A stretch of 46,761 nucleotides of DNA from Bacteroidales bacterium (GTDB lineage Bacteria; Bacteroidota; Bacteroidia; Bacteroidales; ML635J-15): the NCBI GenBank assembly GCA_028702675.1, contig JAQVOJ010000006.1, forward strand, positions 8,911 through 55,671, written 5' to 3'. A model generated the notes under the pieces. That model was not told where the DNA came from. It was given only the letters and a program-made list of their open reading frames with translations, and searched no databases. The number at the start of each line of letters is the position of its first letter. The stretch's first letter is position 1. A program made the position numbers and the translations under genes. Positions 13,069 through 46,428 of this stretch are shown piece by piece.

Positions 13069-13071
13069 AAA

Positions 13072-28803: not shown

Positions 28804-28839
28804 GAATTAAAAATATTAATTTGTCATTTTTGTTCTAAA

Positions 28840-28856
28840 CAAAAATACTATATTTG
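28840..28856. promoter_or_regulatory. Two back-to-back -7 boxes between the PKD gene and porP
   Basis: Minus-strand TATTTTTG (28840-28847) and plus-strand TATATTTG (28849-28856) each fit TAnnTTTG and are separated by one base. They point at the PKD gene (ATG 28803) and the PorP/SprF gene (TTG 28877). Both cannot be melted for opposite transcripts at once, which suggests shared or competing control. Confidence 0.5.
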
Positions 28857-28876
28857 AGCAACTAAAAAAAGAGGTT

Positions 28877-29893: not shown

Positions 29894-29901
29894 TTATTAT
29901 T

Positions 29902-32022
29902 ATGAAGAGCGTTTTTTTATTATTATTGTTTCTTAGTTTTCAGTATATTTTCCCATTTGGTTTGCGTGCTCAGGAAACTCAATATTTAAAACCAAACCAG
30001 CTGAAAAAATATGCTCAAATTGCTGCAAAATCGGGAGATATTTATACTGCAATAGATTATTATGAAGAATATAATAAAGTGCATCCTAATAACACAAAAG
30101 TACATCATGAATTAGGAAATTTGTATTATCGTGAAAGAAATTATGAGAAGGCTGCCGAATTCTTAAACAAAGCATTTAAAGGTAAAAGAAATAAATATGT
30201 ATTAGACCAATATTATTATGCAAATTGCCTAAAATATATGGGTAGATACGATGAGGTAGAACAAGAATTTAAAATTTTTCTAAAGTATCTTAAAAAAGAT
30301 AAACTTAAACAAACATATGGTAGATTTGCCTCAGAGCATATTAAGTCTTTAGAGAAAATTCCCGAAATACAAAGTAAAACCAATGATGTGATAATTACAC
30401 ATTTAAGCAATGATGTTAATAAGCCGCATATAGAATTTAATCCAATTCCATATAATGATGATAAACTAATTTACGGTTCTTTAAAAGAAGATGAACTAAA
30501 GTATTATGATCCCGTTAATGACGAATTGCCGGTTAGGCAATTCTACTTAGCCGGTTATAATAATGGGAAATGGCAAGATTTGGGTACATTCGATGATGTA
30601 ATAAATGGGCACGGAGACTATAATACAGGGAATGGAGCTTTCTCGCATGATGGAAAAAGATTTTATTTTACACGTTGCGAAAAATATTCACCCACACGAA
30701 TAGTATGTCAGATATACCGTTCTGCTTTAATGCATAACGAATGGCAAGAACCTCAATTATTAGAAGAACCTGTTAATATTCCACATTTTACTTCCACAAT
30801 GCCTAGTCTTGGCGTAAGTGAAGCTAATACTGATGTTCTGTATTTTGTGAGCGATAGACCCGAAGGTAGAGGAGGTCTGGATTTATGGTATTCAATTTAC
30901 GACGACAGAAAAGGTCTTTTTAATAAAGTGAAAAGTTGTGGACGTAAAGTAAATACCGAAGGCAATGAAATTACACCTTATTATAATATAGAAACCCGTA
31001 CATTATATTTTAGTTCTGATTATTTACCTGGTTTAGGTGGATACGATGTTTTTAAAGCTGAAGGTAGTGGTCGTAGATTTGAGGAGCCTGAAAATCTAGG
31101 TGCTTCTATTAATTCTTCTTACGACGAATTGTATTATATACTTACTCCTAGCCGACAAAAAGGATTTTTTACATCTAATCGCCCCGGTGGTAATTCTATT
31201 CGACACAATACCTGTTGCGATGATATTTATGAGTTCGTTTATAGAGATTTTATTAATATAATGGTAACAGGACAGGTTTTTGGAATTACCGATAGCACTT
31301 TCTTTAAAAGTATAGAAGCACAATATAAAGAAGAATTCCGATTAAATCTTGAGCAGATTGAGAATGATAAGGATGTTATTGAACTGCTGTATAATCATCC
31401 GGTATCGCTATATATGGTCGATAAAAATACTAAACAAGAACTGTTTATAAAAAATGATAGCACTTCAGATGGTAATTATTGGTTCCAACTAGAACCGGAA
31501 CGCGAATATATTATTAAAGTAGAAGATTTTAATCGTGAGGAGAAAAGCTTATCATTTAATACATTAGGAATTAATCGGTCTGATACTATTGTACTTGATG
31601 CAATTATTGTAAATACAATTCCTAAAGAACCAATAATTGTGAAAAATATTTATTACGAATTTGGTATGTCAAAATTAACTAAAGTAGCAGAAAAAACGAT
31701 TGATAATACTATTTATACCTTAATGAAGACCTATCCGTCAATAATCGTTGAAATTAGCTCACATACAGATTCCGTTTCTTCCGAAGAATTTAATATACGG
31801 CTATCGCAAGATAGGGCACAAAGCGTTGTTAATTACTTAATATCAAAAGGTATTGAACGAGAACGCCTTGTAGCTAAAGGTTATGGCGAAAGTCTGCCTA
31901 TTGCTCCTAATACAAATCCCGATGGTACCGATAACCCCGAAGGGCGTGCTATGAACAGAAGAACAGAATTTAAAATAATTGGGTCTGTTATTGATAAATC
32001 TGATATTATCTACGAAGAATAA
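29902..32022 (+). CDS. TPR / PD40 / OmpA-domain protein paired with PorP/SprF
   Basis: A roughly 706-residue secreted protein with a signal peptide (MKSVFLLLLFLSFQYIFPFG), TPR units to about residue 160 (AIDYYEEYNKVHPNNTKVHH), PD40-like repeats (GAFSHDGKRFYFTRC, LYFVSDRPEGRGGLDLWY, LYFSSDYLPGLGGYDVFKA), a regulatory-like segment near 490-575, and a C-terminal OmpA domain (SSHTDSVSSEEF, LSQDRAQSVVNYL, NRRTEFKI). It may bind peptidoglycan and anchor the PorP/SprF or T9SS machinery, as proposed for PorE-type proteins. I prefer the ATG at 29902, nine bases after the porP stop; an in-frame ATG at 29878 would overlap porP. It shares its architecture with the gene at 3129-5162. Confidence 0.85.
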   Translation: MKSVFLLLLFLSFQYIFPFGLRAQETQYLKPNQLKKYAQIAAKSGDIYTAIDYYEEYNKVHPNNTKVHHELGNLYYRERNYEKAAEFLNKAFKGKRNKYVLDQYYYANCLKYMGRYDEVEQEFKIFLKYLKKDKLKQTYGRFASEHIKSLEKIPEIQSKTNDVIITHLSNDVNKPHIEFNPIPYNDDKLIYGSLKEDELKYYDPVNDELPVRQFYLAGYNNGKWQDLGTFDDVINGHGDYNTGNGAFSHDGKRFYFTRCEKYSPTRIVCQIYRSALMHNEWQEPQLLEEPVNIPHFTSTMPSLGVSEANTDVLYFVSDRPEGRGGLDLWYSIYDDRKGLFNKVKSCGRKVNTEGNEITPYYNIETRTLYFSSDYLPGLGGYDVFKAEGSGRRFEEPENLGASINSSYDELYYILTPSRQKGFFTSNRPGGNSIRHNTCCDDIYEFVYRDFINIMVTGQVFGITDSTFFKSIEAQYKEEFRLNLEQIENDKDVIELLYNHPVSLYMVDKNTKQELFIKNDSTSDGNYWFQLEPEREYIIKVEDFNREEKSLSFNTLGINRSDTIVLDAIIVNTIPKEPIIVKNIYYEFGMSKLTKVAEKTIDNTIYTLMKTYPSIIVEISSHTDSVSSEEFNIRLSQDRAQSVVNYLISKGIERERLVAKGYGESLPIAPNTNPDGTDNPEGRAMNRRTEFKIIGSVIDKSDIIYEE

Positions 32023-32696: not shown

Positions 32697-33176
32697 ATGT
32701 CGCAAACAGATATTAAAAATATTGTTGAAAAGCTTAAAGCTAATGGAGTAGGGGATGTAATTAAAGTTCTGCAAAGTGTACAAGTTCAATTAGGGTACAT
32801 TAAATACGAACATATTAAAGAAATTGCTAACCTGTTAAAAATGCCCGAAAGCAAAGTCTTTGGTATTGCAACATATTATAGTCAGTTTAGATTTAAACCT
32901 ATCGCAAAATATCATATAAAAATTTGTAATGGCACATCATGTCATGTAAATGATAAATATTATTTGCTCGAAGAGATTGAAAGATGGATAAAATTGAAGA
33001 ACTCAGATAAAAAAAATAATCAGTATTCGTACGAGATTGTCGATTGCCTTGGCGTTTGTGCATTTTCGCCTGCTTTAGCTGTTAACGACAAAATATTTAC
33101 AAAAGTGGATATGATAAAGCTAAAAAAGATATTAAATATGATTGAAAATGATAATCTGGAAATAGAATTATTATGA
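32697..33176 (+). CDS. hydC: HydC / NuoE-like [2Fe-2S] subunit
   Basis: The 159-residue protein matches the NuoE family, which gives the small HydC subunit of trimeric NADH-dependent, often electron-bifurcating, [FeFe]-hydrogenases. Helical N-terminal part: VQLGYIKYEHIKEIANLL, KVFGIATYYSQFRFKP. The thioredoxin-like part holds the four [2Fe-2S] cysteines in CNGTSC and CLGVC. The partner is HydB, whose ATG overlaps this stop codon by four bases. As the first gene of the twelve-gene operon it lies directly behind the tandem Rex operators. HydC passes electrons between HydB and other centres in characterised complexes. Confidence 0.9.
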   Translation: MSQTDIKNIVEKLKANGVGDVIKVLQSVQVQLGYIKYEHIKEIANLLKMPESKVFGIATYYSQFRFKPIAKYHIKICNGTSCHVNDKYYLLEEIERWIKLKNSDKKNNQYSYEIVDCLGVCAFSPALAVNDKIFTKVDMIKLKKILNMIENDNLEIELL

Positions 33177-35080
33177 AACTATCCGGTAATATAATACCTA
33201 ATTTAATATTTCCCGAATTAGAACTCTACAATGCTTACCAAGAGGTTTCTGATAATATTCCACGTATATATTTAGGAAAGGGTACTTGTAGTATTGCCGT
33301 AGGATTAAATGAAGTTAAAGACGCTATTATAGATTATTCTTCTCTGCACAAAATAGATTTAAAGATTATTGAAACATCTTGCCGTGGTATTTGTACTTAC
33401 GATCCCATTATTGAAATTAAAATTAAAGGACGAAACAGAATATTATTTAAAAATATTAAGCCTACTGATGTTTCAGAGATTCTTTCTTCGGTATTAAATC
33501 AAATTGTTCCGGATTCAAAATTTGTGTTAGGTCAAGTTATTGATAAGGATATGTATGAATGGACAAATGTTCCGGATATTATGCAAAATAACTTTTTTAG
33601 CAAGCAAACTCGAAGATTGACTAAATATTTTGGAGAATCGGATCCTTTAGATATCGCTTCATACATAATGCAAGGAGGTTTTTTTGCACTTAATAAAGTT
33701 ATAAGTACTATGCAGCCCGACGAGGTATGTGCTGAGATTGAAGAAAGTGGCTTGCAAGGTAGAGGTGGTGGTGGATATAATACAGGCATTAAATGGAAGG
33801 CTAGCTTACAAAACGATTCCTCATTAAAATACTTTATTTGTAATGCCGACGAAAGCGACCCAGGATCATTTGTAGATAGAATGCTTGTAGAAGCTAATCC
33901 TTTTGGATTAATCGAAGGGGTAATTATTGGAGCATATGCCATTAGAGCTTCCGAAGCAATCATTTATATAAGTAGCAGATATCCATTTGCTAATGAAAGA
34001 TTAAGAAAAGCTCTTGAAATAGTAAAAGACCATAAACTAGTCGGTAACGATATTGCAGATAGCGGTTATAATATACACATAGAAATTATCGAGAGTCCCG
34101 GAACTTATGTATGTGGTGAAGAAACTGCATTAATTGCTAGTATTCAAGGACAACGCGGAATGCCCGAGCCCAAACCGCCATATCCTGCCGAAAGCGGATT
34201 GAACGGAATGCCCACAGTGGTAAATAATGTAGAAACTCTTTGCAATGTACCCTTAATTCTTCAACATGGAGTTGATTGGTTCAAGCAAATTGGGAATAAA
34301 TATAGTAAAGGTACTAAGTTATTTTCGGTAACGGGTAAAGTGAAAATAACAGGATTAGTTGAAGTACCAATGGGGGCAACTCTTAAGTCTGTTCTCGAAA
34401 TTTGTGGCGGAGTTAAAAACAATAAAGACCCTAAGGCAATACATTTAGGCGGACCTTCGGGCGGTTTTATTCCTCCACAACATTTTCAGTTACCAATTGA
34501 TTATTTTCATATTAGTAACGAAGGTATTTGGCCTGGTTCCGGTAGCTTTTCGGTTCTTGATAACGAAAATTGCTTAATAGAACTTGCAAAGTATTACATG
34601 GAATTTGTAGAAAACGAAAGCTGTGGAAAATGTATTCCTTGCCGTGAAGGCTCCCAACGAATGGTTGAAATTCTCGATAGGATTACTAAAAAACCTGCTT
34701 CGGTAAACGATAAAGAAACTTTAATACGGTTTAAGGGAGTTATGCAAATGGAGCAATTAGCAGATGTAATGAAATCAACTTCGCTGTGTGGATTAGGACA
34801 AAATGCCCCTAATCTTATTGCTTCAATTCTTAAATATTTTAAAAATGAATTAGAAGAGCATATTTATGAGCGTAAATGTGCTGCCGGTGTATGTCGTAAT
34901 TTGAGGAAGTTTTCTATTGATGTTGATAATTGTACAGGTTGTACGTTATGTGCCCGCAAATGCCCTTCAGATGCAATTATTGGAACTCCTAAACATCCTC
35001 ATTTTATCGTTGAAGAAAAATGTATTAATTGTGGGATATGTTTTGAAGTGTGTAAATTTAATGCTGTAATAATTTCTTAA
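33173..35080 (+). CDS. hydB: HydB / NuoF-like NADH-binding flavoprotein subunit
   Basis: The 635-residue protein is a NuoF-type subunit with the HydB layout. An N-terminal thioredoxin-like ferredoxin part (GKGTCSIAVG, TSCRGICTYDP) shows three of the four usual cysteines (C39, C70, C74). Next is the FMN/NADH core: GLQGRGGGGYNTGIKWK, CNADESDPGSFVDRML, ESPGTYVCGEETALIASIQG and PPYPAESGLNGMPTVVNNVE. A [4Fe-4S] site follows (ESCGKCIPCREG), and two [4Fe-4S] ferredoxin motifs lie at the C-terminus (CTGCTLCARKCP, CINCGICFEVCKF). It should exchange electrons with NADH through FMN. These motifs are intact, unlike parts of the HydA-like partner, so the NADH-reacting half of the complex looks functional. 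Confidence 0.92.
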   Translation: MKLSGNIIPNLIFPELELYNAYQEVSDNIPRIYLGKGTCSIAVGLNEVKDAIIDYSSLHKIDLKIIETSCRGICTYDPIIEIKIKGRNRILFKNIKPTDVSEILSSVLNQIVPDSKFVLGQVIDKDMYEWTNVPDIMQNNFFSKQTRRLTKYFGESDPLDIASYIMQGGFFALNKVISTMQPDEVCAEIEESGLQGRGGGGYNTGIKWKASLQNDSSLKYFICNADESDPGSFVDRMLVEANPFGLIEGVIIGAYAIRASEAIIYISSRYPFANERLRKALEIVKDHKLVGNDIADSGYNIHIEIIESPGTYVCGEETALIASIQGQRGMPEPKPPYPAESGLNGMPTVVNNVETLCNVPLILQHGVDWFKQIGNKYSKGTKLFSVTGKVKITGLVEVPMGATLKSVLEICGGVKNNKDPKAIHLGGPSGGFIPPQHFQLPIDYFHISNEGIWPGSGSFSVLDNENCLIELAKYYMEFVENESCGKCIPCREGSQRMVEILDRITKKPASVNDKETLIRFKGVMQMEQLADVMKSTSLCGLGQNAPNLIASILKYFKNELEEHIYERKCAAGVCRNLRKFSIDVDNCTGCTLCARKCPSDAIIGTPKHPHFIVEEKCINCGICFEVCKFNAVIIS

Positions 35081-35082
35081 AT

Positions 35083-36762
35083 ATGCCTGTAAATATTTTA
35101 GTAAATAATAATAAAATAAAAGCCGAAAAAGGTAAAATGCTTTTACAGGTGCTATTAGATAATGGCATTAGAATTCCTACACTTTGCAATTTGTCTGATA
35201 TGTTGCCAACAGGTGCTTGCCGTTTGTGTGTTGTAGAAATTGCCGAAACAGGAGAACTTATTCCTGCTTGTTCTACACCTGTTACTGACGGATTAAATAT
35301 ATTTACACACTCTAAAAGAGTTATAAGAGCTAGACAAACCATCGTAGATTTATTACTTACTAATCATCCCGAAGATTGTTTGTATTGTGATAAAAATCGT
35401 AATTGTGAGCTTCAACTATTAGCAGATGAGCTTAATTTGAGAGAAAGAATCTTTACGGGAAGAAAAAAAATCGGAAAAATTGATAGATCAAGTCAAGGAA
35501 TTGTTTTAGACCTTAGTAAATGTATCTTATGCGGACGATGTGTAAAAGTGTGTGATAATATTGCCGGAGTTTCTGCTCTAGACCATGTATATCGAGGAAA
35601 AAACTCAAGCATTTCTACGGTTTTTAATAAAGGTTTATACTATTCAACATGCATTCAATGCGGACAGTGCCTAAATGTTTGCCCTACAGGTGCATTGAGC
35701 GAAAAATCTAATTTAAAGCAAGTTGTAGAACGTCTAATGATAAATTCGCAACCAATTAATGCAATATTATCTACAAGTAGCATTATTTCAATTGCTGATA
35801 GATTTGGAATTAGAAAAGTGGATGATGCGGCTCAATTTATTATTGCAGCAATGCACGAAATTGGGTTTAAAACTGTAGTTCCCGAAGGTTTTGGTAGCGA
35901 TGTATATATAATAAAATATGGCAAAATTATTAACGAACTGATTAATAGAAAAGATTTTAAAATTATTATTTCAGACTGCCCTGCAGTTAAGCAATGGATA
36001 GAACTGAAATATCCCGAAGATTTAAAATATTTGCCAAATTTTAAATCTGCTCAGCAAATTATGGCAAAAGCTGTACATGAATTTAGCAAGTCTCCAACAA
36101 GAATTGTTAATGTTGCTGTGATGCCTTGTATTGCTCGTAAAAACGAAGCTTTAGATGTTGATAATCTCTCGCGTGGTTTGCCCGATTTAGATTATGTAAT
36201 TAGTACTTCAGAGCTTTTACAATTGTTCAGAACCAGAGGGATTACATATCCATTTCCTCGAAAAGCAATGTTCGATACTCCATTTGTCTCTTTTAGCCTT
36301 GCTGCTATAGCATCACAAGTATCGGGTGGCTTGAGCGAATCAATTTTTGATACCGCCGGACATAAAAATTTTGCATCGGCAATTAAATCCAAAATTAACA
36401 ACAAAGAAGCAAAAGATTTTAAAATAATAGAATCTGATATTAATGGAAATACATTTGGATTAGCTGTAATTAATGGTTTAAAATCAATAAATCAAAATTT
36501 TGAGAATGTGATGAATAATAAAGATATTCAGTTTATCGAATTAACTGCTTGTAAAGGTGGTTGTGTGGCAGGCTGTAGCCAACTTTCGGTAAACGAGTCG
36601 GGGATTCAAAAAATCATTAACGAAAGTATTCAACAAACTATAATTCGGGATCCCAATACTAATCCATATTATAAGGGTTTAGTAAACGAGAATAAAATAT
36701 CAGACGAAATAATTGGTTATAAAAATAGTACGATAAACCGATATTTAATCAATGAAAAATAA
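35083..36762 (+). CDS. hydA: HydA-like [FeFe]-hydrogenase subunit with altered active site
   Basis: The 559-residue protein has the modular N-terminus of HydA: a [2Fe-2S] domain (C35, C46, C49, C63), a His-Cys3 [4Fe-4S] site (H95, C99, C102, C108) and two [4Fe-4S] motifs (147-157 and 190-200). The H-domain keeps the four cysteines that hold the H-cluster cubane (C299, C349, C490, C494). However, the usual TSCCP of motif L1 reads ISDCP: the residue equal to proton-relay Cys299 of the C. pasteurianum enzyme is Asp298. The position equal to relay Ser319 is Pro, the Glu-rich stretch after FGAD reads FGSDVYIIKYG, and the conserved motif-L2 Lys appears as Arg (MPCIARKNE). The small C-terminal domain is weakly matched. 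It is either a divergent hydrogenase with another proton path, or a non-catalytic or sensory relative. Maturases HydE, HydF and HydG are not in the window. Confidence 0.8.
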   Translation: MPVNILVNNNKIKAEKGKMLLQVLLDNGIRIPTLCNLSDMLPTGACRLCVVEIAETGELIPACSTPVTDGLNIFTHSKRVIRARQTIVDLLLTNHPEDCLYCDKNRNCELQLLADELNLRERIFTGRKKIGKIDRSSQGIVLDLSKCILCGRCVKVCDNIAGVSALDHVYRGKNSSISTVFNKGLYYSTCIQCGQCLNVCPTGALSEKSNLKQVVERLMINSQPINAILSTSSIISIADRFGIRKVDDAAQFIIAAMHEIGFKTVVPEGFGSDVYIIKYGKIINELINRKDFKIIISDCPAVKQWIELKYPEDLKYLPNFKSAQQIMAKAVHEFSKSPTRIVNVAVMPCIARKNEALDVDNLSRGLPDLDYVISTSELLQLFRTRGITYPFPRKAMFDTPFVSFSLAAIASQVSGGLSESIFDTAGHKNFASAIKSKINNKEAKDFKIIESDINGNTFGLAVINGLKSINQNFENVMNNKDIQFIELTACKGGCVAGCSQLSVNESGIQKIINESIQQTIIRDPNTNPYYKGLVNENKISDEIIGYKNSTINRYLINEK

Positions 36763-38740
36763 ACAACAAATAGTATATACAATTGAAGACCTTTGCGAAA
36801 TGTGTTATACATGTGTTAGGGTCTGTCCTGCAAAAGCTATTAGTATCACAAATGGTCAAGCACAAGTTATACCTGAACGGTGTATTGCTTGCGGTAATTG
36901 CATTAGAGTATGTACTCGAAATGCAAAAATGTTTCGTAATAACGAAACCGATTTACTGACTATGATTGAAAATAAGGAGAATATGATTGCAGTAATTGCT
37001 CCAAGTTTTCCGGCAGAGTTTAAAGAAGTAGAAGATTATCGAAAAGTTGTTGGTGCTGTTAGAAGTTTAGGTTTCGATAAAGTTGTGGAAGTCGCTTTTG
37101 GAGCAGATATTGTTGCCGAACATTATAAAAATTTGCTCGCTAATAGTGATAAAAACACTAGGTTTATTTCTAGCGATTGTCCTGCTGTTGTAAATTATAT
37201 TACTAAATATCATCCAAGACTAACCAGTAATTTAGCCCCTATTGTATCGCCTGTAATGGCTATAGTTAGGGTATTAAAGCATAAGTATGCCAACAAATAC
37301 AAAATAGTGTTTTTTGGACCATGTATTGCCAAAAAAGATGAATCCGACGAAGTTGATCTTACTATTACTTTTACGGAATTGCGTTCGGTTATGAGTTTAA
37401 AAAACATCTCTGCAAAAGAAGCTGAACCATCAGAATTTGACCCGCCACATAGTGGGAGAGGTGCAGTTTTCCCAATTAGTAGAGGTTTAATACAAACTAT
37501 TAATTTGAAAGAAGACGTTGTAGAAGGAAATATTGTAGTAGCTGACGGTAAATCTAATTTCAAAGAAGCTATTAATGAGTTTGATAACGGACTTATAAGC
37601 GACCATCATTTAGAATTGCTGTGTTGTGAAGGATGCATTATGGGACCAGGTATGTCCGAATTAGGTAAACGATACGAAAATAGGGCTTATGTAACTAACT
37701 ATGTAAAAGAAAAATTTAATAATATTGATGTAGAAGAATGGAAAAAGGAGCTTGAAGCAACTAAAGAAATTGACTTTAGTCGGAGTTTTGAACCTGACGA
37801 TGTAAGAGTTTTAAGACCTTCGCAAGAAGAATTAGATAATTTATATAAAAAAATGGGTAAAACACGACCCGAGGATCATTTAAATTGCCAAGCTTGTGGT
37901 TACGATTCATGCGAAGAACATGCAATTGCTGTTCTTAGAGGTCTTGCCGAAGTAGAAATGTGTTTGCCATATATGATAAAAGAATTGCATAAATCGGTTG
38001 ATGAACTTAATTTTAAAAATGTAAAACTTGCCAATATGAGGCAAGCCCTTAAGCAAAGCGAGAAACTGGCACATTTGGGGCAATTATCAGCAGGAATTGC
38101 TCACGAACTCAACAACCCCCTCGGTGTAGTTATAATGTATAGCAATATCTTACTTGACGAAGCTGGACCAAACAGTGATGTGGCAGAAGATTTAAAAATG
38201 ATAACAGAACAAGCACAAAGATGTAAAAACATTGTTGGTGGTTTATTAAATTTTGCTCGTAAAAATAAAGTAAGCTATGAATCTATATCGGTTGTAGAGC
38301 TAATACAACAATGTTTAAAATCTGTACTTATTCCCGAAGATATTGAAGTAGAAATTAAAAATTACGTTAAAAATAGTAATATCAATGTAGATATAGAACA
38401 AATGACACAAGCTTTATCAAATATTGTAAAAAATGCTGTTGAGGCAATATCTGATAAAGGGAAAATTATTATTTACCTATATGATACTGACGATTATATA
38501 AATATTGAAATTGAAGATACAGGTTCAGGTATTAATAACGAAAATCTTGAGAAAGTATTTACACCTTTCTTTACTACAAAAGGATTGGGAAAAGGTACCG
38601 GTTTAGGTTTACCTACTGTGTATGGAGTCGTAAAAATGCACAAAGGAAAAATTAGAATTGAAACCAACAATAATCCTGAAAAAGGACGAACAGGAACAAA
38701 ATTTATCATTAATTTACCTAAAAATCCACAATTATTTTGA
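36752..38740 (+). CDS. hydS: Sensory [FeFe]-hydrogenase fused to histidine kinase (HydS-type)
   Basis: The 662-residue fusion begins with two [4Fe-4S] ferredoxin motifs (C15-C25, C44-C54). The H-domain of the sensory class follows: motif L1 SSDCPAVV with Asp142 at the proton-relay position and Cys143, L2 GPCIAKKDE with Cys191, and L3 LCCEGCIMGPG with Cys291, Cys292 and Cys295. Then come a [4Fe-4S] domain (CQACGYDSC, with a further Cys404), a coiled segment, a HisKA domain with His451 in HELNNPLG, and an ATPase domain (DTGSG, GKGTGLGLP). It should sense H2 or redox state and phosphorylate a partner. No PAS domain separates sensor from kinase. It overlaps the hydA-like gene by 11 bases and is followed directly by a receiver gene, its likely partner. 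Confidence 0.88.
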   Translation: MKNKQQIVYTIEDLCEMCYTCVRVCPAKAISITNGQAQVIPERCIACGNCIRVCTRNAKMFRNNETDLLTMIENKENMIAVIAPSFPAEFKEVEDYRKVVGAVRSLGFDKVVEVAFGADIVAEHYKNLLANSDKNTRFISSDCPAVVNYITKYHPRLTSNLAPIVSPVMAIVRVLKHKYANKYKIVFFGPCIAKKDESDEVDLTITFTELRSVMSLKNISAKEAEPSEFDPPHSGRGAVFPISRGLIQTINLKEDVVEGNIVVADGKSNFKEAINEFDNGLISDHHLELLCCEGCIMGPGMSELGKRYENRAYVTNYVKEKFNNIDVEEWKKELEATKEIDFSRSFEPDDVRVLRPSQEELDNLYKKMGKTRPEDHLNCQACGYDSCEEHAIAVLRGLAEVEMCLPYMIKELHKSVDELNFKNVKLANMRQALKQSEKLAHLGQLSAGIAHELNNPLGVVIMYSNILLDEAGPNSDVAEDLKMITEQAQRCKNIVGGLLNFARKNKVSYESISVVELIQQCLKSVLIPEDIEVEIKNYVKNSNINVDIEQMTQALSNIVKNAVEAISDKGKIIIYLYDTDDYINIEIEDTGSGINNENLEKVFTPFFTTKGLGKGTGLGLPTVYGVVKMHKGKIRIETNNNPEKGRTGTKFIINLPKNPQLF

Positions 38741-38742
38741 TT

Positions 38743-39126
38743 ATGAATAAGCAAAATGTAAATATCTTAATAGCTGATGACGATCCCGATTACTTATTCC
38801 AGTTTTCGCTATTGCTTAGTAACGAGGGTTTTAATGTAATTCAAACAAGCAGTCAAAAAGAAGCCGAAGCCTATCTTGAAACTAATAAGCCGGATATTGC
38901 CGTATTCGATTTAATGATGGAGCAACACGACAGCGGGTTTATACTTGCTTATAAAACAAAAAAAGTGTATCCCGACATTCCCGTAATTATTTGTACTGCA
39001 GTAGGCTCAGAAACAGGGATGAGTTTTGATATAGATAATAATTGGATTAAAGCTGACCTTTATCTCGAAAAAGGAAAAGCTACAAGCATTTTGGCCGAAG
39101 AAGTTAAAAATCTTTTAAATTTATGA
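38743..39126 (+). CDS. Single-domain response regulator (receiver only)
   Basis: The 127-residue protein is a lone receiver domain: acidic pocket ADDDPD near the N-terminus, phosphoacceptor Asp in AVFDLMME, the Thr in ICTAVG, and the conserved Lys in YLEKGKA. No output domain follows. The frame extends to a TTG at 38737 overlapping the kinase stop, but the ATG at 38743 is the better start. Lying between a sensory-hydrogenase kinase and a receiver-kinase, it is a good candidate for a phosphate carrier between the two. It ends in an ATGA overlap with the next gene. Confidence 0.88.
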   Translation: MNKQNVNILIADDDPDYLFQFSLLLSNEGFNVIQTSSQKEAEAYLETNKPDIAVFDLMMEQHDSGFILAYKTKKVYPDIPVIICTAVGSETGMSFDIDNNWIKADLYLEKGKATSILAEEVKNLLNL

Positions 39127-40247
39127 TTATGGATAAACTGAATATTTTAGTTGTTGACGATGAGCCTGGTATAAGAATGGGTGTAAAAAGGGTATTACAA
39201 CAATTCGAGGTTGATTATCCCTTTATGGACGAACCTATTGGTTTCAATGTAGTAGATGTTGAAACCGGCGAAGAAGCAATTGAATTATTAAATTCCAATA
39301 ATTACGATGTTGTTTTTCTTGATAATAAACTTCCAGGGATTCAAGGTATAGAAGTATTAGAATATATTAATAAAAATATGCCCGAAACACGTGTTATTAT
39401 GATAACTTCTTACGCTTCGCTTGAATTAGCTGTAAAAGCAACTAAAATAGGAGCTTACGATTTTGTCCCTAAACCTTTCACTCCCGCCGAATTACGTGCA
39501 TGTACCGAAAATGTTGCGAAGCAAGTCTTTCTTAAAAAAATGACTAAAAAGCTTCATAAAGAAGGAAGACATATTAGGTTTCAGTTTCTTTCATTGTTGT
39601 CTCACGAGCTTAAAAATCCGATTGGTGCAGTTGAAGGGTATCTAAAAATGATTAAAGAACGTAAAGCAGGAAATAATATCGACAGTTATGATGAAATGAT
39701 AATGAGATCACTCGAAAGATTAAACAATATGAGAGATTTAATTATGGATTTACTTGATCTGAGTAAAATTTCAGGCGGAGAAAAAAACAGAGAACTAAAA
39801 GATATTGATATTTCTCAAATTGCTAAAGAAGCTATCAACGCTATGCAACCAATGGCAATTCAAAAAGATATTCAAATGTATCTTAATTGCAAAGAAAATA
39901 TATTTTTGTATGGCGATACAAGGGAAATAGAAATGATATTTAATAATCTAATATCAAATGCAATAAAATATAATGAGAAAAACGGCAGAGTAGATGTGTT
40001 TATCGAAGAAACACCTAAAACAGTAAAAGTTGTTGTTGCCGACACAGGAATTGGAATATCAAAAGACGACCAACAAAAATTATTTAATGAGTTTGTAAGA
40101 ATTAAAAATACTAAAACAAAAAATATTTCAGGGAGCGGTTTAGGTTTATCGATAGTAAGTCAAATTCTTGAAAATTACCATGCCGAAATTACTGTTAATA
40201 GTGAACCAAACGAAGGTTCAGAATTTATCATAGTGTTTAATAAATAA
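39123..40247 (+). CDS. Receiver-histidine kinase hybrid
   Basis: The 374-residue protein has an N-terminal receiver domain (LVVDDEPGIR, FLDNKLPG with the phosphoacceptor Asp, MITSYAS, FVPKPFTP). A HisKA domain follows (SLLSHELKNPIGAVEGYLKM), then an ATPase domain (NNLISNAIKYNEKNG, VADTGIGIS, SGSGLGLSIV). It has no membrane segment, so it is cytoplasmic. Because the receiver comes before the kinase, kinase activity may be controlled by phosphate from the upstream sensory kinase, giving a relay. No DNA-binding regulator for its output is in the operon. It overlaps the preceding receiver by four bases. Confidence 0.9.
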   Translation: MIMDKLNILVVDDEPGIRMGVKRVLQQFEVDYPFMDEPIGFNVVDVETGEEAIELLNSNNYDVVFLDNKLPGIQGIEVLEYINKNMPETRVIMITSYASLELAVKATKIGAYDFVPKPFTPAELRACTENVAKQVFLKKMTKKLHKEGRHIRFQFLSLLSHELKNPIGAVEGYLKMIKERKAGNNIDSYDEMIMRSLERLNNMRDLIMDLLDLSKISGGEKNRELKDIDISQIAKEAINAMQPMAIQKDIQMYLNCKENIFLYGDTREIEMIFNNLISNAIKYNEKNGRVDVFIEETPKTVKVVVADTGIGISKDDQQKLFNEFVRIKNTKTKNISGSGLGLSIVSQILENYHAEITVNSEPNEGSEFIIVFNK

Positions 40248-40263
40248 GATTAAAGTATATTTT

Positions 40264-40893
40264 ATGTTGCCGGAAAAAACAATAGAAAGGCTTAGCCAAT
40301 ACCGAAGGCTTTTACTTGCTAATAAACAAAAAGGAAAAGAGAATATTTTTTCACACGAAATAGCTGTACAACTTCATCTTACATCGGTACAAGTAAGACG
40401 CGATATTATGTTAATAGGATATTCAGGTACGCAACGCAAAGGGTATAATATCGATTTGCTTATCGAGAAAATAAGCTCAATACTTGACGACGAAAAGGGG
40501 TTGAATAGCATTATTATCGGAATGGGGAATCTTGGTAAAGCTATATCAACCTATTTTTATGGTAAGCGTAATAAAATTGATATAGTTGCAGCTTTTGATA
40601 TAGATATAAAAAAAACGGGACGTTTAATTTCTGGCGTGTGGTGCTATCATACTTCTGATTTAGAAACTATTATAAAAGAGAAACAAATAAGTCTTGCTAT
40701 TTTAGCATTAGCTCCCGAAGCAGCGCAAGATATTACCGACAGAATAATTTTTGCAGGTGTTAAAGGTATTCTTAATTTTACATCGGTTCCACTAAATGTG
40801 TTGCCAAATGTGTATTTAGAAAATTATGATATGGTTACCTCTATAGAAAAGGTCGCTTATTTTGTTAAAGAAAATCATTTGCAGAATCGATGA
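40264..40893 (+). CDS. rex: Redox-sensing transcriptional repressor Rex
   Basis: The 209-residue protein matches Rex over its length. The winged-helix DNA-binding part reads TIERLSQYRRLLL, EIAVQLHLTSVQVRRDIMLI and GYSGTQRKGYNI. The Rossmann NADH-binding part reads SIIIGMGNLGKAIS, VAAFDIDIKKTG and ILALAPEAAQDITDRI. Rex dimers bind DNA when NAD+ dominates and leave it when NADH rises. Two Rex operators lie at the start of this same operon, so it probably controls its own synthesis along with the hydrogenase genes. The stop overlaps the ATG of the RibF-like gene. Confidence 0.95.
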   Translation: MLPEKTIERLSQYRRLLLANKQKGKENIFSHEIAVQLHLTSVQVRRDIMLIGYSGTQRKGYNIDLLIEKISSILDDEKGLNSIIIGMGNLGKAISTYFYGKRNKIDIVAAFDIDIKKTGRLISGVWCYHTSDLETIIKEKQISLAILALAPEAAQDITDRIIFAGVKGILNFTSVPLNVLPNVYLENYDMVTSIEKVAYFVKENHLQNR

Positions 40894-41780
40894 AAGTACA
40901 TTACGGATTTGAGAGTATAAGTCAGATTAAAAAACCGGTTGTTACTACCGGTTCTTTCGATGGTGTGCATGTGGGGCATAGAGTTATTCTTAAAAGATTA
41001 AATACAATTGCTCACAAAAACAATGGTGAATCGGTGTTAATTACATTTCATCCACACCCTAGAAAAGTTTTGTTTCCTGAAAAATCGAAAGACCTTTTCC
41101 TTATCAATTCTCAAATAGAAAAAAAATATTTGTTAGAATCAGTACAAATTGATCACGTTATAATTGTGGAGTTTACTAAAGAGTTTTCCGAAATATCTTC
41201 GCAAGAGTTTGTCCAAGATTATCTTATCAAAAAGCTTAATTCTCATACAATCATTGTTGGTTTTAATCACCATTTCGGACATAACAGAATGGGAGATTAT
41301 AATTATTTGTACGAATTAAGTAAAAAGATGAATTTTGCTGTCGAAGAAATTCCAATGCAAGATATCGAAAACGAAGCTGTAAGTAGTACACGTATTCGTA
41401 AAGCTATTAAAGAAGGACATATTGGTAGGGCAAATGCATATTTAGATCACCCATATTTTATTATTGGCAAAACAAAGCCTGTAAATGAAAAACACTTGAC
41501 TAATAGGATTAGTACCGAAATTATAATTGATGAGGATATTAAAATGTTGCCTCCAGCGGGTAGGTATGCTGCAAAACTTATATCTAACAATTATTCCTTG
41601 AATACTCTGTGCGAGATAAATAATAGAAGGGTGTTAATTTATTTAAATTGCGAATTAGATATTTTTAAGAATCAACCTGTATATTTGGAGTTGCATAAAA
41701 CAATTCGCTTATTCAAAAATGATAATAATCTGTCAACTTTTGATGCTGATAAAATAGAAATTGAAGAACTAATATATTAA
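40890..41780 (+). CDS. RibF-like FAD synthetase with degenerate riboflavin kinase half
   Basis: The 296-residue protein has a clear N-terminal FMN adenylyltransferase (FAD synthetase) domain: TGSFDGVHVGHRVIL, TFHPHPRKVL, FSEISSQEFVQDYLI, VGFNHHFGHNRMGD and SSTRIRKAI. The C-terminal half should hold riboflavin kinase. There the family's glycine-rich GRTLGFPTAN-type motif appears as a segment reading KPVNEKHLTNRIST, and the NIG-type catalytic motif is not visible, although LPPAGRYAAKL keeps the family's LPxxGVYA outline. So FAD synthesis is plausible and riboflavin phosphorylation doubtful. It could also use another substrate. Its start overlaps rex by four bases. Confidence 0.8.
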   Translation: MKVHYGFESISQIKKPVVTTGSFDGVHVGHRVILKRLNTIAHKNNGESVLITFHPHPRKVLFPEKSKDLFLINSQIEKKYLLESVQIDHVIIVEFTKEFSEISSQEFVQDYLIKKLNSHTIIVGFNHHFGHNRMGDYNYLYELSKKMNFAVEEIPMQDIENEAVSSTRIRKAIKEGHIGRANAYLDHPYFIIGKTKPVNEKHLTNRISTEIIIDEDIKMLPPAGRYAAKLISNNYSLNTLCEINNRRVLIYLNCELDIFKNQPVYLELHKTIRLFKNDNNLSTFDADKIEIEELIY

Positions 41781-41794
41781 AATAAAATTGCCTT

Positions 41795-43105
41795 ATGAAA
41801 ATTTCGATGATTGGAACCGGTTATGTAGGACTAGTATCAGGAACATGTTTTTCCGAAATGGGTATTACAGCCACCTGTGTAGATGTTGATGTAGAAAAAA
41901 TTAACGGTCTAAAGAAGAATCAGATTCCAATTTGGGAACCGGGCTTAAATGCTATGGTTAAAAGAAATGCAGAACGTAAAAGATTATTTTTTACAACTAG
42001 CTTAAAAGAAAGTCTGGTAGGAGCAGAAGCTTGTTTTATCGCTGTTGGTACACCACCCGACGAAGATGGTAGTGCCGACCTAAAATATGTTTTGGCAGTA
42101 GCCGACGAAATAGGACAGTATATTACTGATTATATGGTAATTGTAACAAAAAGCACAGTGCCAATAGGTACTGCCGAAAAAGTACGTAAAACTGTACAAG
42201 ATGCACTTAATAAACGTGGTGTGAATATCCCTTTCGATGTAGCTTCAAATCCCGAATTCCTGAAAGAAGGAGATGCAATTGACGACTGTATGCACCCCGA
42301 TAGAATTGTTATTGGTACCGATTCCGACAGAGCTAAACAAATTCTTGATAGACTTTACAAGCCTTTTGTGCTTAACGGACACCCTATTATTTATATGGAT
42401 ATACCTAGCGCCGAACTCACAAAATATACTGCCAACGCTATGTTAGCAACCAAAATTAGTTTTATGAACGATATTGCAAATCTTTGCGAAATTGTTGGAG
42501 CAGATATCAATATGGTACGTAAAGGCATAGGAAGCGATAAAAGAATAGGCCCTTATTTTATTTACGCCGGCACAGGATATGGTGGCTCATGTTTCCCAAA
42601 AGATGTACAAGCAATTATTAAAACCGCAGACGAAAATAATTATTCTCTCGAAATTCTTAAGGCTGTAGAATCTGTTAATAATAGACAGAAAGAAACTTTG
42701 TACCGCAAACTTATGAAATATTTTAATAATGATATTAAAGGGAAGAAGTTTGCTATGTGGGGACTTTCGTTTAAACCAAATACAGATGATATGCGAGAAG
42801 CTCCTGCATTAGTTCTTATCGATAAAATTACTAAAGCCGGTGCCGAAGTTGTAGCTTACGATCCGGTAGCAATCGACGAGTGCAAACGAAGAATTGGTAA
42901 TAAAGTTACTTATGCAAAAACAGCTTACCAAGCAATTGATAATGCTGATGCTTTGCTTCTTGTAACCGAATGGACCGAATTCAGGGTTCTAAATTATCCT
43001 AAGTTGGAAAAACTTAAAAACAAATTAATATTTGATGGTAGAAATATATACGATCCAAATGAATTAAAATCTAATGGATACGAATATTTTAGTATTGGAA
43101 GATAA
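41795..43105 (+). CDS. ugd: UDP-glucose 6-dehydrogenase
   Basis: The 436-residue protein fits the UDP-glucose/GDP-mannose dehydrogenase family: N-terminal NAD-binding MIGTGYVGLVSGTCFSEMG, VGTPPDEDGSADL, STVPIGTA, ASNPEFLKEGDAIDD, the catalytic Cys in GTGYGGSCFPKD, and the C-terminal GLSFKPNTDDMREAP. It oxidises UDP-glucose to UDP-glucuronate while making two NADH. Substrate specificity within the family is assigned by similarity. It sits 14 bases after the RibF-like gene inside a regulatory operon for redox sensing; polysaccharide genes are absent, so its place here is unusual. A TAAAATTG sequence just upstream is a weak promoter candidate. Confidence 0.92.
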   Translation: MKISMIGTGYVGLVSGTCFSEMGITATCVDVDVEKINGLKKNQIPIWEPGLNAMVKRNAERKRLFFTTSLKESLVGAEACFIAVGTPPDEDGSADLKYVLAVADEIGQYITDYMVIVTKSTVPIGTAEKVRKTVQDALNKRGVNIPFDVASNPEFLKEGDAIDDCMHPDRIVIGTDSDRAKQILDRLYKPFVLNGHPIIYMDIPSAELTKYTANAMLATKISFMNDIANLCEIVGADINMVRKGIGSDKRIGPYFIYAGTGYGGSCFPKDVQAIIKTADENNYSLEILKAVESVNNRQKETLYRKLMKYFNNDIKGKKFAMWGLSFKPNTDDMREAPALVLIDKITKAGAEVVAYDPVAIDECKRRIGNKVTYAKTAYQAIDNADALLLVTEWTEFRVLNYPKLEKLKNKLIFDGRNIYDPNELKSNGYEYFSIGR

Positions 43106-43120
43106 ATATACCTATATGTT

Positions 43121-43375
43121 ATGAATAAAAAGGTGGAAATTACTATTTGTTTAGGAAGCTCATGTTTTAGTCGTGGAAATAGAGATTTGGTAAGCTTCGT
43201 ACAAGATTATATTGCCGAACATAAATTGCACGATAGTGTAAATTTTAAAGGAGGACACTGTTTTGGAGCTTGCAACAAAGGACCTGTAGTTATTATCAAT
43301 GGACAACAATATTATTCATTGACACGACAAAAATTGGGTGAGCTGTTAAATGATTGTTTTAATATAAATAAATGA
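43121..43375 (+). CDS. Thioredoxin-like [2Fe-2S] ferredoxin
   Basis: The 84-residue protein has the four-cysteine pattern of thioredoxin-like [2Fe-2S] ferredoxins, CLGSSC (C10, C15) and CFGAC (C47, C51), within VNFKGGHCFGACNKGPVVII. Small genes of this type often lie beside HydC/HydB and sensory hydrogenase genes. It could carry electrons to the second sensory hydrogenase, whose start overlaps its stop (ATGA). Confidence 0.88.
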   Translation: MNKKVEITICLGSSCFSRGNRDLVSFVQDYIAEHKLHDSVNFKGGHCFGACNKGPVVIINGQQYYSLTRQKLGELLNDCFNINK

Positions 43376-45225
43376 ATATGGAACTGATCCGCATAGATCA
43401 GAAAAAGTGTACATCATGTTATGCTTGCTTAAGAGCTTGCCCTGTTAAGGCAATTCAAATTAACGATAAAGATCAAGTATATATCAATCATCAACGATGT
43501 ATAGCATGTGGTAATTGTTATGTTAATTGTTCTTCAGGTGCAATTTCATATATTTCTTCGATAAAACCGGTCGAGAAATTAATAAAATCAAACAGCGAAG
43601 TTATTGCTATCGTAGATCCAGCAATTGCTGCAGAATTTCCCGATATTACCGATTATCGGAATTTTGTTGGTATGATCAGAACAATTGGGTTTGCTAAAGT
43701 TTGCGAAATTTCGTTTGGGGCTGACCTGGTAGCCGAAGAATATGCCGAGTTAATTAAAAATTTTAAAGGCAAATATTACATTACATCTGCTTGCCCACCG
43801 GTAGTGGAGTATATAGAAAAATTTCAACCCGGAATTATTGATAGTTTGTTACCTGTGTGTTCACCCATGATAGCAACAGCCAAAGCAGTTCGTAAAAAGT
43901 ATGGAGAAAATATTAAAATTATTGCTATAAGTCCATGTATTGCTCAGAAAAAGGAAATAAAAAGGTATCCAGGTTTGGTTGATGAACTCCTTAGCTTCGA
44001 GGAACTAAGGCAAATGTTTGATGATAAAAATATTACAGAAAACTCGGTGGAGTTTTCGGAATTTGACCCTCCACACGGTAGAACCGGCTCTCTTTACCCT
44101 CTTAGCCATGGACTGTTAGAAGCAGGAAAGATAAACACAGAAATTAATACTGATAAAATTATTACTCGCGAAGGAAATTATGAATTTCGACAAAATATAG
44201 ACGATTTTGCTAAAATACCATCAATCAAGCATCACCTAAATATATTTTTTTGCAAAGGTTGCAGTATGGGCCCTTGTACATCTGCAAGTCAAAGTTACTT
44301 ACAATCATATAGTTTGGTTGTGAACTTTGCATCAAAACGAATTAATAGCGTTAGTAAAGATGAACATCAAAAGGATATTAGGGAGTTTGGAGATATGCAA
44401 TTAATGGCTGTTTTTTCACCTAACGATCAGCGATTACCTAATCCTCCCGAAGCAAAAGTTAAGCAAGTTCTAAATCTTTTAGGACACGAACATTGCGATA
44501 ATCATTCATGCCAAAGCTGTGGTTATAAATCTTGCAGAGAGTTTGCTGTTGATGTAGCTAAGAATCTTATGAAACCCGAAATGTGTGTAACATATACTTT
44601 ACGTAACCGACAAGATTATATTAAGCAGCTTACCGAAACTAATAGAGCACTTGCAAATACAAAAAAAGCTCTTGAAGTATCGGAACGTAAAATGAGAGTA
44701 GAACGCGAATCTACTAACGAAACAATGAATATGGTAGATGAGGTATTACAAAAACTGCCATCAGGGGTGGTAATTGTTGATAAAGAACTCTCAATAGTGA
44801 AAAGTAATACACGTTTTATTGATGTACTTGGTAGCGATGCAGTCGAAATTTCAGAAGTGATTCCCGGATTAGTTGGAGCCGATTTGCATACATTATTACC
44901 AAAAGATATTTATACTCTGTTCGAATATGTAATTAATGAAAATTTACCTATCGAAAATCGTGATATCAACTTTAAAGATAATTTGTTGAACCTCTCTGTT
45001 TTTCCAATAAAAAAAGCAAATATCGTTGCTGCTGTATTTCGTGATATGCACGAACCGGAAGTCCGTAGAGATGAGGTAGTTAATCGCGTAAACGAAGTAA
45101 TCGAAAAAAATCTGAATATGGTGCAACAAATAGGATTCTTATTGGGCGAAGGAGCTGCAGAAACCGAAAAAATGCTAAATAGTATTATTGAATCATTTAG
45201 AAAAGATAAAAGAAATAACGAGTAA
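43372..45225 (+). CDS. Second sensory [FeFe]-hydrogenase with PAS-like domain
   Basis: The 617-residue protein has two N-terminal [4Fe-4S] motifs (C13-C23, C43-C53) and a sensory H-domain. Motif L1 is TSACPPVV (Ala140 in place of the proton-relay Cys, Cys141 kept), L2 is SPCIAQKKE (Cys189), and L3 is FFCKGCSMGPC (Cys294, Cys297). A [4Fe-4S] domain follows (CQSCGYKSC, then MCVTYTL), then a coiled coil and a PAS-like domain (about 445-560, LPSGVVIVDKELSIVKSNTR). There is no kinase. Compared with the fusion at 36752, the L3 cysteine pair is shifted by one position against the catalytic consensus. The next gene encodes a SpoIIE-type phosphatase one base after this stop, suggesting that this sensor controls the phosphatase. 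The ATG at 43378 is an alternative start. Confidence 0.88.
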   Translation: MNMELIRIDQKKCTSCYACLRACPVKAIQINDKDQVYINHQRCIACGNCYVNCSSGAISYISSIKPVEKLIKSNSEVIAIVDPAIAAEFPDITDYRNFVGMIRTIGFAKVCEISFGADLVAEEYAELIKNFKGKYYITSACPPVVEYIEKFQPGIIDSLLPVCSPMIATAKAVRKKYGENIKIIAISPCIAQKKEIKRYPGLVDELLSFEELRQMFDDKNITENSVEFSEFDPPHGRTGSLYPLSHGLLEAGKINTEINTDKIITREGNYEFRQNIDDFAKIPSIKHHLNIFFCKGCSMGPCTSASQSYLQSYSLVVNFASKRINSVSKDEHQKDIREFGDMQLMAVFSPNDQRLPNPPEAKVKQVLNLLGHEHCDNHSCQSCGYKSCREFAVDVAKNLMKPEMCVTYTLRNRQDYIKQLTETNRALANTKKALEVSERKMRVERESTNETMNMVDEVLQKLPSGVVIVDKELSIVKSNTRFIDVLGSDAVEISEVIPGLVGADLHTLLPKDIYTLFEYVINENLPIENRDINFKDNLLNLSVFPIKKANIVAAVFRDMHEPEVRRDEVVNRVNEVIEKNLNMVQQIGFLLGEGAAETEKMLNSIIESFRKDKRNNE

Positions 45226-46428
45226 GTGGTAGGAGAAAATACATATATCGAAATTGAAGCCAGACAAATTAACCATCAGGGCGAAAGAATTTGTGGCGAT
45301 GTGTTTCTGAAACGCAGAATAAAAGAAGAAAACAGAATGGTGGCTGTGCTTAGCGATGGAATGGGACACGGAGTAAAAGCTAATGTTTTGGCATCGCTTA
45401 CGGCTACTATGGCAATAAATTTTATTATTGAACATAGAGACCCTGTTCGTATTGCAGAAATTATAATGAAAACATTGCCTGTATGTAAAGAACGAAAAAT
45501 AGCTTATGCTACATTTACTGCAATAGATATTGACAATACTGGAAAAATACATATTCTCGAATATGATACACCCCATGCTCTCGCTTTTAGAGAAAAAAAA
45601 CCTCTAAAATTAGTTTGGAAACCCCTCGAAATGAAAATCGAAAAAAATAATCCTGATGGCTTTCAGAATAAAACGCTTTGGTACACAAGTTTTTACCCAC
45701 GATTACAAGACAGATTAGTCTTTTTTAGCGATGGAGTAGCTCAATCAGGTTTAGGAACCGAAAATTTCCCGTTTGGATGGGGAAACGTAAAAATTCAAAA
45801 GTATATTGAGGGATTAATAGAAAACGATATAGAGGTATCGGCTGCAAAAATCTCAGAAAAGGTGGTTAATCGTTCGGTTTTAAACGATGGATATACTGCA
45901 AAAGACGATATTAGTTGCGCCTGTATGTATTTTAGAAAACCACGAAAATTACTGCTCGTTACAGGTCCACCTTTCGATTTTAATCAGGATAAACAATTAG
46001 CAAATACTGTTGATAGTTTTGATGGTAAAAAAATTGTATGCGGCGGTACTACTATCGAAATACTTAGCCGTGAACTAAAACGTGATGTTACTGATAGCCT
46101 TGAGTTCTACGACCCCGATTTGCCCCCATTTAGCTATATGGATGGTATTGACTTAGTTACCGAAGGAATTTTAACATTAAATAAAGTTAATCGCATCCTT
46201 AAAGATTTCGATAGTAATTATATTACAGGAAAAGGTCCTGCTGATAGAATTGTAAAAATGTTGCACCAAAGCGACCAGATAAATCTTATTGTAGGTACTA
46301 AAATTAATGAGGCACACCAAGACCCTAATGTGCCGGTTGACCTCGAAATACGTAGAACTATTGCTTTAAGACTTGCAAGACTTCTCGAAGACAAATTCCT
46401 TAAAGAGGTTAAAGTTAGTTTTATTTAG
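45226..46428 (+). CDS. SpoIIE/PP2C-type serine phosphatase
   Basis: The 400-residue protein starts at GTG directly after the upstream stop codon. It has PP2C metal-site motifs: GDVFL (Asp25), LSDGMGHG (Asp44), FFSDGVAQSG and KDDISC. This makes it a SpoIIE-like Ser/Thr phosphatase. About 150 residues follow the phosphatase core (KLLLVTGPPFDFNQDKQLAN, KKIVCGGTTIEILSREL, ITGKGPADRIVKMLH); I do not recognise this part as a named domain. Such phosphatases occur beside sensory hydrogenases in other anaerobes. The substrate may be a phosphorylated anti-sigma antagonist or another protein; no STAS or anti-sigma gene is present in the window. It is the last gene of the operon. Confidence 0.88.
   Translation: MVGENTYIEIEARQINHQGERICGDVFLKRRIKEENRMVAVLSDGMGHGVKANVLASLTATMAINFIIEHRDPVRIAEIIMKTLPVCKERKIAYATFTAIDIDNTGKIHILEYDTPHALAFREKKPLKLVWKPLEMKIEKNNPDGFQNKTLWYTSFYPRLQDRLVFFSDGVAQSGLGTENFPFGWGNVKIQKYIEGLIENDIEVSAAKISEKVVNRSVLNDGYTAKDDISCACMYFRKPRKLLLVTGPPFDFNQDKQLANTVDSFDGKKIVCGGTTIEILSRELKRDVTDSLEFYDPDLPPFSYMDGIDLVTEGILTLNKVNRILKDFDSNYITGKGPADRIVKMLHQSDQINLIVGTKINEAHQDPNVPVDLEIRRTIALRLARLLEDKFLKEVKVSFI

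Follow-up and report, generated by a model that had tools for sequence, protein, structure and literature searches.

A HydA-like subunit lacking the proton path and the [2Fe] pocket in a Bacteroidales sensor operon: a probable electron relay or sensor component

Background

Some HydABC complexes are NADH-only. Bfu complexes have many third substrates, and 17 clades of BfuB have no assigned function (PMC9304861). Substitution of aspartate for the relay cysteine of [FeFe]-hydrogenases is tolerated: in CaHydA, C298D lowers kcat by only 47%, so that about half is kept (PMC3485046), and CpI with C299D belongs to a set of variants that keep 30-90% of the activity (PMC6226526). In the same enzyme, E279A or E279Q leaves less than 1% of the activity and S319A leaves 6%, and the C-terminal histidines H565 and H569 are part of the network at the entrance of the proton path (PMC6226526). 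In a prototypical enzyme, as cited in PMC10055695, the M497L replacement leaves the [2Fe] site not properly integrated. Group C and D sensors without C299, M353 and M497 still bind [2Fe] and show slow turnover (PMC10055695, PMC10407848); thus losses in the pocket do not prove that the site is empty. TamHydS uses another proton chain, with E252 and E289 (PMC10407848).

Here we consider HydA*, the HydA-like (BfuA) subunit encoded in the window, that is, in the whole analysed stretch of 46,761 nucleotides from a Bacteroidales genome (3.09 Mb, 98.9% complete). Its residues were mapped by alignment to CpI and to HydABC structures, and residue changes are given in CpI numbering. The same type of HydA, with the motif [IV][ST]DCP, is present in ten species from two genera of one GTDB family (below, the SDCP clade). 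Judging from the sequence, HydA* is the HydA (BfuA) subunit of a HydABC trimer linked to NADH and is most readily explained as part of a non-catalytic variant of this known complex; the trimer is probably an electron relay or a part of a sensor rather than an H2-making enzyme.

Gene organization

The HydA* gene is an uninterrupted open reading frame encoding 559 amino acids. It lies in a tight operon with the order hydC-hydB-hydA*-hydHK-RR-RRHK-rex-ribF-ugd-trx2Fe-hydPAS-spoIIE (Table 1), which is the same in all ten SDCP genomes. The overlaps are 4 bp (hydC/hydB and hydHK/RR) and 11 bp (hydA*/hydHK), and hydB ends 2 bp before hydA*. According to the domain scan, HydA* ends at the H-domain and has no fused PAS or kinase module. 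Apart from RibF and UDP-glucose dehydrogenase, the further genes of the operon encode sensors and regulators; no extra catalytic domain or enzyme subunit is present. Pfam detects neither a kinase nor a PAS domain in HydPAS. In the SDCP clade the L3 motif of HydPAS, too, contains an extra cysteine, with GPC instead of the GPG of other clusters.

Table 1. Features of the HydA* gene and of its operon (positions in the window)
Feature	Coordinates	Strand	Remarks
HydC, thioredoxin-like [2Fe-2S]	32697..33176	+	four cysteines invariant
HydB, FMN/NADH, [4Fe-4S], C-terminal 2x[4Fe-4S]	33173..35080	+	domain scan, cysteine conservation
HydA*	35083..36762	+	non-canonical H-domain behind intact NuoG/HoxU-like Fe-S N-terminus ([2Fe-2S] and [4Fe-4S] motifs)
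HydA* electron-wiring domain, residues 1-210	35083..35712	+	15 Fe-S cysteines invariant in intact, degenerate and SDCP groups
HydA* H-domain, residues about 220-505	35740..36597	+	identity 44%, dN/dS 0.06-0.12 among SDCP pairs
Tyr279 codon (CpI E279, essential proton-path Glu)	35917..35919	+	E279 in 0/10 SDCP
Asp298 codon (CpI C299, proton-relay Cys)	35974..35976	+	Asp in 10/10 SDCP
Pro318 codon (CpI S319)	36034..36036	+	alignment
Arg352 codon (CpI K358, [2Fe]-pocket residue)	36136..36138	+	His or Asn in other SDCP members
Thr488 codon (CpI M497)	36544..36546	+	Arg in other SDCP members
Cys498 codon (CpI G507), gained	36574..36576	+	invariant in SDCP clade
HydHK, H-domain fused to histidine kinase	36752..38740	+	SSDCP, GPCIAKK, CCEGC conserved
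Response-regulator-like protein (RR)	38737..39126	+	conserved in cluster; named by reading the translation
Response regulator-histidine kinase hybrid (RRHK)	39123..40247	+	domain scan
Rex-like NADH/NAD+-sensing repressor	40264..40893	+	Put_DNA-bind_N and CoA_binding
RibF and UDP-glucose dehydrogenase	40890..43105		lie within this operon in most SDCP genomes
Small thioredoxin-like [2Fe-2S] protein	43121..43375	+	domain scan
HydPAS, sensory hydrogenase-like, TSACP	43372..45225	+	label by analogy to HydS
SpoIIE-type phosphatase	45226..46428	+	domain scan

The H-domain of HydHK retains P231 and K358, both of which are lost in HydA*, and its APS, GPC-AKK and L3 cysteines are present in nearly all clusters. 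Within the same operon, one [2Fe]-type pocket is thus preserved and the other lost. The L1 motif of HydA*, ISDCP, indeed resembles SSDCPAVV of the sensory protein encoded next, as pointed out in the earlier note. However, nearly every Bacteroidales cluster has SSDCP as its HydHK motif, also where HydA is of the intact TSCCP type. As the kinase has this motif irrespective of the state of HydA, there is no sign of a common origin; inheritance of the HydA* motif from the adjoining kinase was rejected, and the likeness is considered convergent.

Two other groups of genes in the window were described from their translations. Positions 24364-32022 encode a large repeat-rich secreted-type protein with a possible PorP/SprF-like protein and an OmpA-like protein adjoining, which is suggestive of a type IX secretion-linked group. 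Positions 11299-14853 contain two adjoining chloride-channel-like genes, both with CBS-like tails, that look like the product of a tandem duplication.

Residue changes in the H-domain

Compared to CpI, HydA* carries the changes C299D, E279Y, E278K, S319P, K358R, M497T, P231T, W303V and G507C. The proton-path residues C299, E279 and S319 are thus replaced by D, Y and P, and the [2Fe]-pocket residues P231, K358 and M497, kept in 100%, 96% and 100% of the relatives with Cys299, are replaced by T, R and T. All four cubane ligands (C299, C349, C490 and C494 in the numbering of HydA* itself), the MPC motif with M353, and Glu at CpI position 361 are retained. A cysteine at CpI position 507 is found in all ten SDCP proteins and in none of 100 relatives with Cys299. 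The C-terminal LLHT tail, present in 66 of 75 comparison relatives, is absent from HydA* and all other SDCP proteins; in our reading it carries the equivalents of CpI H565 and H569.

The earlier note had recognized the ISDCP motif with Asp298 at the position of the relay cysteine, proline in place of the relay serine, arginine in place of an H-cluster lysine, and the four remaining cubane ligands, all of which agree with the alignment. Replacement of the glutamate-rich stretch is also real (E278K, E279Y), the preceding motif being FGSD and not FGAD. The known proton path is lost as claimed, and this was an understatement, as the [2Fe] pocket is gone too. On the other hand, the emphasis on the cysteine-to-aspartate change was misplaced. 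That Asp298 alone breaks the path is rejected by the published C298D and C299D mutants, which are active, whereas E279 and S319 mutants are impaired; it is the sum of the changes, and not the aspartate, that argues against turnover. Judged by alignment, the losses beyond the aspartate would probably stop H2 turnover.

HydA* is very unlikely to be part of an ordinary, working HydABC hydrogenase whose substitutions are tolerated, although the operon encodes a full HydABC set with the correct fold and aspartate is the only replacement that the relay position tolerates (PMC3485046). E279 and S319 are lost, no catalytic relative with the same set of substitutions was found among the relatives examined, and HydA* scores far below the profile cut-offs, with 224 bits against 406 for TIGR02512 (group A H-domain) and 397 bits against 765 for NF040763 (A6). 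Intact relatives pass both cut-offs, and NF040763 is passed by the two other HydA proteins of the same genome. The group A H-domain score falls stepwise from 502-511 in intact proteins through 437, 355 and 320 to 178-224 in the SDCP clade, while the N-terminal profile stays level at about 180-220 (HoxU-like score of 190 in HydA* and 198-221 in intact proteins).

The AF2 model of HydA* (pLDDT 80.5), of the kind proposed in the earlier note, has the [FeFe]-hydrogenase fold, with Z of 42.7 to CpI and 39.6 to TmHydABC; confidence is low in the L3 loop at about residues 499-501. The modelled fold, being common to HydA* and [FeFe]-hydrogenases, is no proof of function.

Conservation and selection

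In the SDCP clade E279 is lost in ten of ten proteins, K358 is replaced by H, N or R, and M497 by R or T. One member, L017, has Phe at the position of the cubane Cys499 (CpI) but still has C503 and the new C507. Invariance of the aspartate in ten species means that it is due neither to chance nor to a sequencing error. No SDCP relatives outside the GTDB family were found in 295 genomes of the order, 395 genomes of the phylum and a scan of named genome contigs, which together are a sample rather than a census.

The wiring and cubane cysteines of HydA are invariant in the clade except for C499 in one species. The cysteines of the FMN domain and C-terminus of HydB that belong to Fe-S sites also present in intact relatives, as well as the four cysteines of HydC, are invariant or nearly so, and to this extent the motifs of HydB and HydC are intact, as stated in the earlier note. 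However, the three N-terminal [2Fe-2S] cysteines of HydB, in its thioredoxin-like domain, are eroding, from 100% to 40-72% in the degenerate clade, possibly pointing to another route for the electrons. By these predicted features, namely the FMN/NADH site and C-terminal Fe-S pair of HydB, HydC, and the HydA wiring, HydA* belongs to a HydABC trimer; with cubane ligands kept and the [2Fe] pocket lost, its sequence matches the [4Fe-4S]-only relay type of HydA homologue.

In pairs of SDCP proteins the identity is 44% in the H-domain and 66% in the N-terminus, compared to 53% and 62% in intact CCP pairs and 65% and 61% in CSP pairs. The dN/dS ratio in SDCP pairs is 0.06-0.12 in the H-domain, only about two-fold off the N-terminus (0.03-0.06); it is 0.03-0.08 in the H-domain of intact pairs. 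Such values indicate purifying selection and not decay. A decaying pseudogene or an assembly error is hardly credible: HydA* diverges faster than any other subunit of the block except HydC, as decay would have it, but the frame is intact, the aspartate and the new cysteine are common to ten species, the dN/dS ratio is low, and synteny is conserved.

Phylogeny and distribution

The trees were constructed for HydB and residues 1-212 of HydA, with trait columns excluded. HydA* lies inside the SDCP clade (support 100), whose sister is a protein with the motif VTTCP (99). The SDCP clade is nested in a Bacteroidales clade of 59 rows (support 99, FastTree), which is also recovered by mixture-model IQ-TREE with 58 rows (99). 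The named relatives of the clade are metagenome bins of Bacteroidales or Marinilabiliales. Thus HydA*, for which a tree had been suggested in the earlier note, is placed outside the catalytic HydA proteins, among proteins with the same kind of losses. Intact rows with TSCCP and E279 branch below the Bacteroidales clade, so the loss of the proton path is derived.

Within the Bacteroidales clade E279 is retained in 6 of 59 rows, C299 in 26, and C299, E279 and S319 together in three, compared to 67, 66 and 66 of the 67 rows outside. Many members of the larger clade have SSCCP and an intact pocket, E279 being the main loss. The tree implies six or more losses of the relay cysteine (at least 6-7 changes of presence), the replacing residue being D, A, S, T, N, R or F.

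The HydABC complexes of the Bacteroidales clade are mostly encoded in sensor operons with HydHK. The HydPAS-SpoIIE module is present in the cluster in 48 of 59 rows inside the clade, some of the absences being due to contig ends, and in none of 67 outside. Since the module and the broken path follow one and the same clade split, their association reflects one origin and is not an independent statistical test. HydCBA-HydHK-RR-RRHK clusters are widespread in Bacteroidales, and the same clusters, usually with rex, occur on contigs labelled Marinimicrobia, Planctomycetes, Acidobacteria, Myxococcota and others. A separate loss of the relay cysteine outside Bacteroidota is seen in HydA of a Thermoguttaceae locus (L152), with SSASP, K358R and M497T, E279 kept, and no kinase gene. 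No description of the broken-path Bacteroidales clade was found in the openly accessible papers searched.

Other HydA proteins and maturation proteins of the genome

Two further hydA genes, one with TSCCP and the other with TSCSP, are present elsewhere in the genome, and both products score above the A6 cut-off (NF040763). In the TSCSP protein (L002, 1354-3147; G000:C105) serine replaces one of the cubane cysteines, as it does in HydA1 of A. woodii and many other relatives. One genome, G026, appeared to have no intact HydA; this genome is only 90% complete, however, and G001, with three HydA hits, contains a near-identical cluster, so that the observation is given no weight.

HydF and HydG of the same genome score above the cut-offs, and each was detected in 18 of 20 genomes; those without a hit are incomplete. 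Thus loss of the maturases was rejected as support for an empty [2Fe] site, and [2Fe] is likely available. The HydG cut-off is passed by two proteins of the genome (G000:C46:3065-4471, 510 bits, and G000:C91:572-2023, 444 bits), the second of which may be a paralogue with another function.

Possible function

The reading that we prefer, with chances that seem about even, is that the trimer works for the adjoining sensors as an NADH-linked electron relay and no longer as a hydrogenase. The H-domain of HydA* would carry only a [4Fe-4S] cluster, perhaps re-ligated by Cys498. Electrons from NADH, and possibly ferredoxin, would pass through HydB and HydC to HydA*, to the cluster of its H-domain and then to a partner; gene order suggests that the latter is most likely HydHK, the product of the overlapping gene. 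The two-component system would then read the redox state of NADH or ferredoxin together with H2, the NADH state being sensed jointly with Rex, and H2 production would be left to the two intact HydABC enzymes encoded elsewhere in the genome.

The earlier note suggested a trimeric complex linked to NADH, with an H-domain that serves as a sensor, is active in one direction or performs another reaction. The broken path and the retained trimer and wiring agree with this, but an H2 sensor is less likely for HydA* than a [4Fe-4S]-only relay, since the binding pocket for [2Fe] is also gone. The sensor alternative is a slow H2-sensing HydABC with the full H-cluster kept, where Asp298 relays protons via another chain and the binding of H2 is signalled through NADH or to HydHK. 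It is possible, though doubtful. The C298D and C299D enzymes are functional (PMC3485046, PMC6226526), sensory enzymes use other chains, such as E252 and E289 in TamHydS (PMC10407848), and HydA* has kept M353 and the glutamate at CpI 361; HydF and HydG are present, and larger-clade members often have SSCCP and an intact pocket. However, P231, K358, M497, E279 and S319 are all lost in HydA*, a cysteine has appeared in L3, the C-terminal tail is gone, and one SDCP relative has lost a cubane cysteine.

Another possibility, an unlikely one, is that the trimer performs a different reaction at an altered cluster, five-cysteine or other, coupled to NADH and ferredoxin as in Bfu complexes. The many third substrates of the latter and the 17 unassigned BfuB clades (PMC9304861) would leave room for it, and Cys498 and Asp298 are invariant under purifying selection; the chemistry is unspecified, and the operon has no extra catalytic domain or enzyme subunit that would point to it.

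Returning to the relay, it may be tentatively suggested that the whole Bacteroidales HydABC clade has turned from H2-making enzymes into NADH-linked redox-sensing modules feeding hydrogenase-like kinases. The proton path would have been lost first, with the relay cysteine lost at least six times, and in the subclade of the window the [2Fe] site would have been exchanged for a re-ligated Fe-S cluster with a new cysteine.

Annotation, automated or by eye, would call HydA* a hydrogenase and thus overcount the H2 capacity of the genome. The clade forms a natural series within one conserved operon, from an intact site to loss of the proton path and then of the [2Fe] pocket, and its natural proteins thereby allow tests of what E279, C299 and the [2Fe] pocket contribute. 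Should the kinase indeed be fed by the trimer, this would be a new coupling of the NADH redox state to a two-component system, and the poorly understood operons of sensory hydrogenases would gain a function open to testing.

Comparison with known systems

The HydABC/Bfu complexes of T. maritima (7P5H), A. woodii (7Q4V) and T. kivui (8A6T) share with the window trimer the three subunits, the domain order, the Fe-S cysteines, the FMN/NADH site and the overall fold. The window trimer differs in the loss of the proton path and the [2Fe] pocket, the extra cysteine, the absence of the C-terminal tail and the sensor operon. In Hydrogenedentota, sub-types IV and V of BfuABC with a T subunit are encoded, as here, beside a group C3 kinase or a PAS protein (PMC11406978). 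However, the P1-P3 motifs of these proteins are reported to be generally conserved (PMC11406978), whereas they are broken in HydA*.

In NiFe-HydABCSL of Acetomicrobium mobile the H-cluster of HydA is replaced by a [4Fe-4S] cluster, which is used as a wire (PMC9304861), and this complex is a precedent for the relay reading of HydA*. There the NiFe subunits perform the H2 chemistry, whereas the window operon contains sensors, and no catalytic subunit is seen in it. Group C and D HydS proteins (TmHydS, TamHydS) resemble HydA* in the altered relay cysteine and M353/M497 positions and in the regulatory gene context. However, HydS is a sensor fusion that keeps the residues holding [2Fe], whereas HydA* is a subunit of an NADH-linked trimer and lacks such residues. 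Finally, HydA homologues of the Nar1/NARF type combine the H-domain fold and the cubane cysteines with the absence of the [2Fe] subsite; they are eukaryotic and have other partners.
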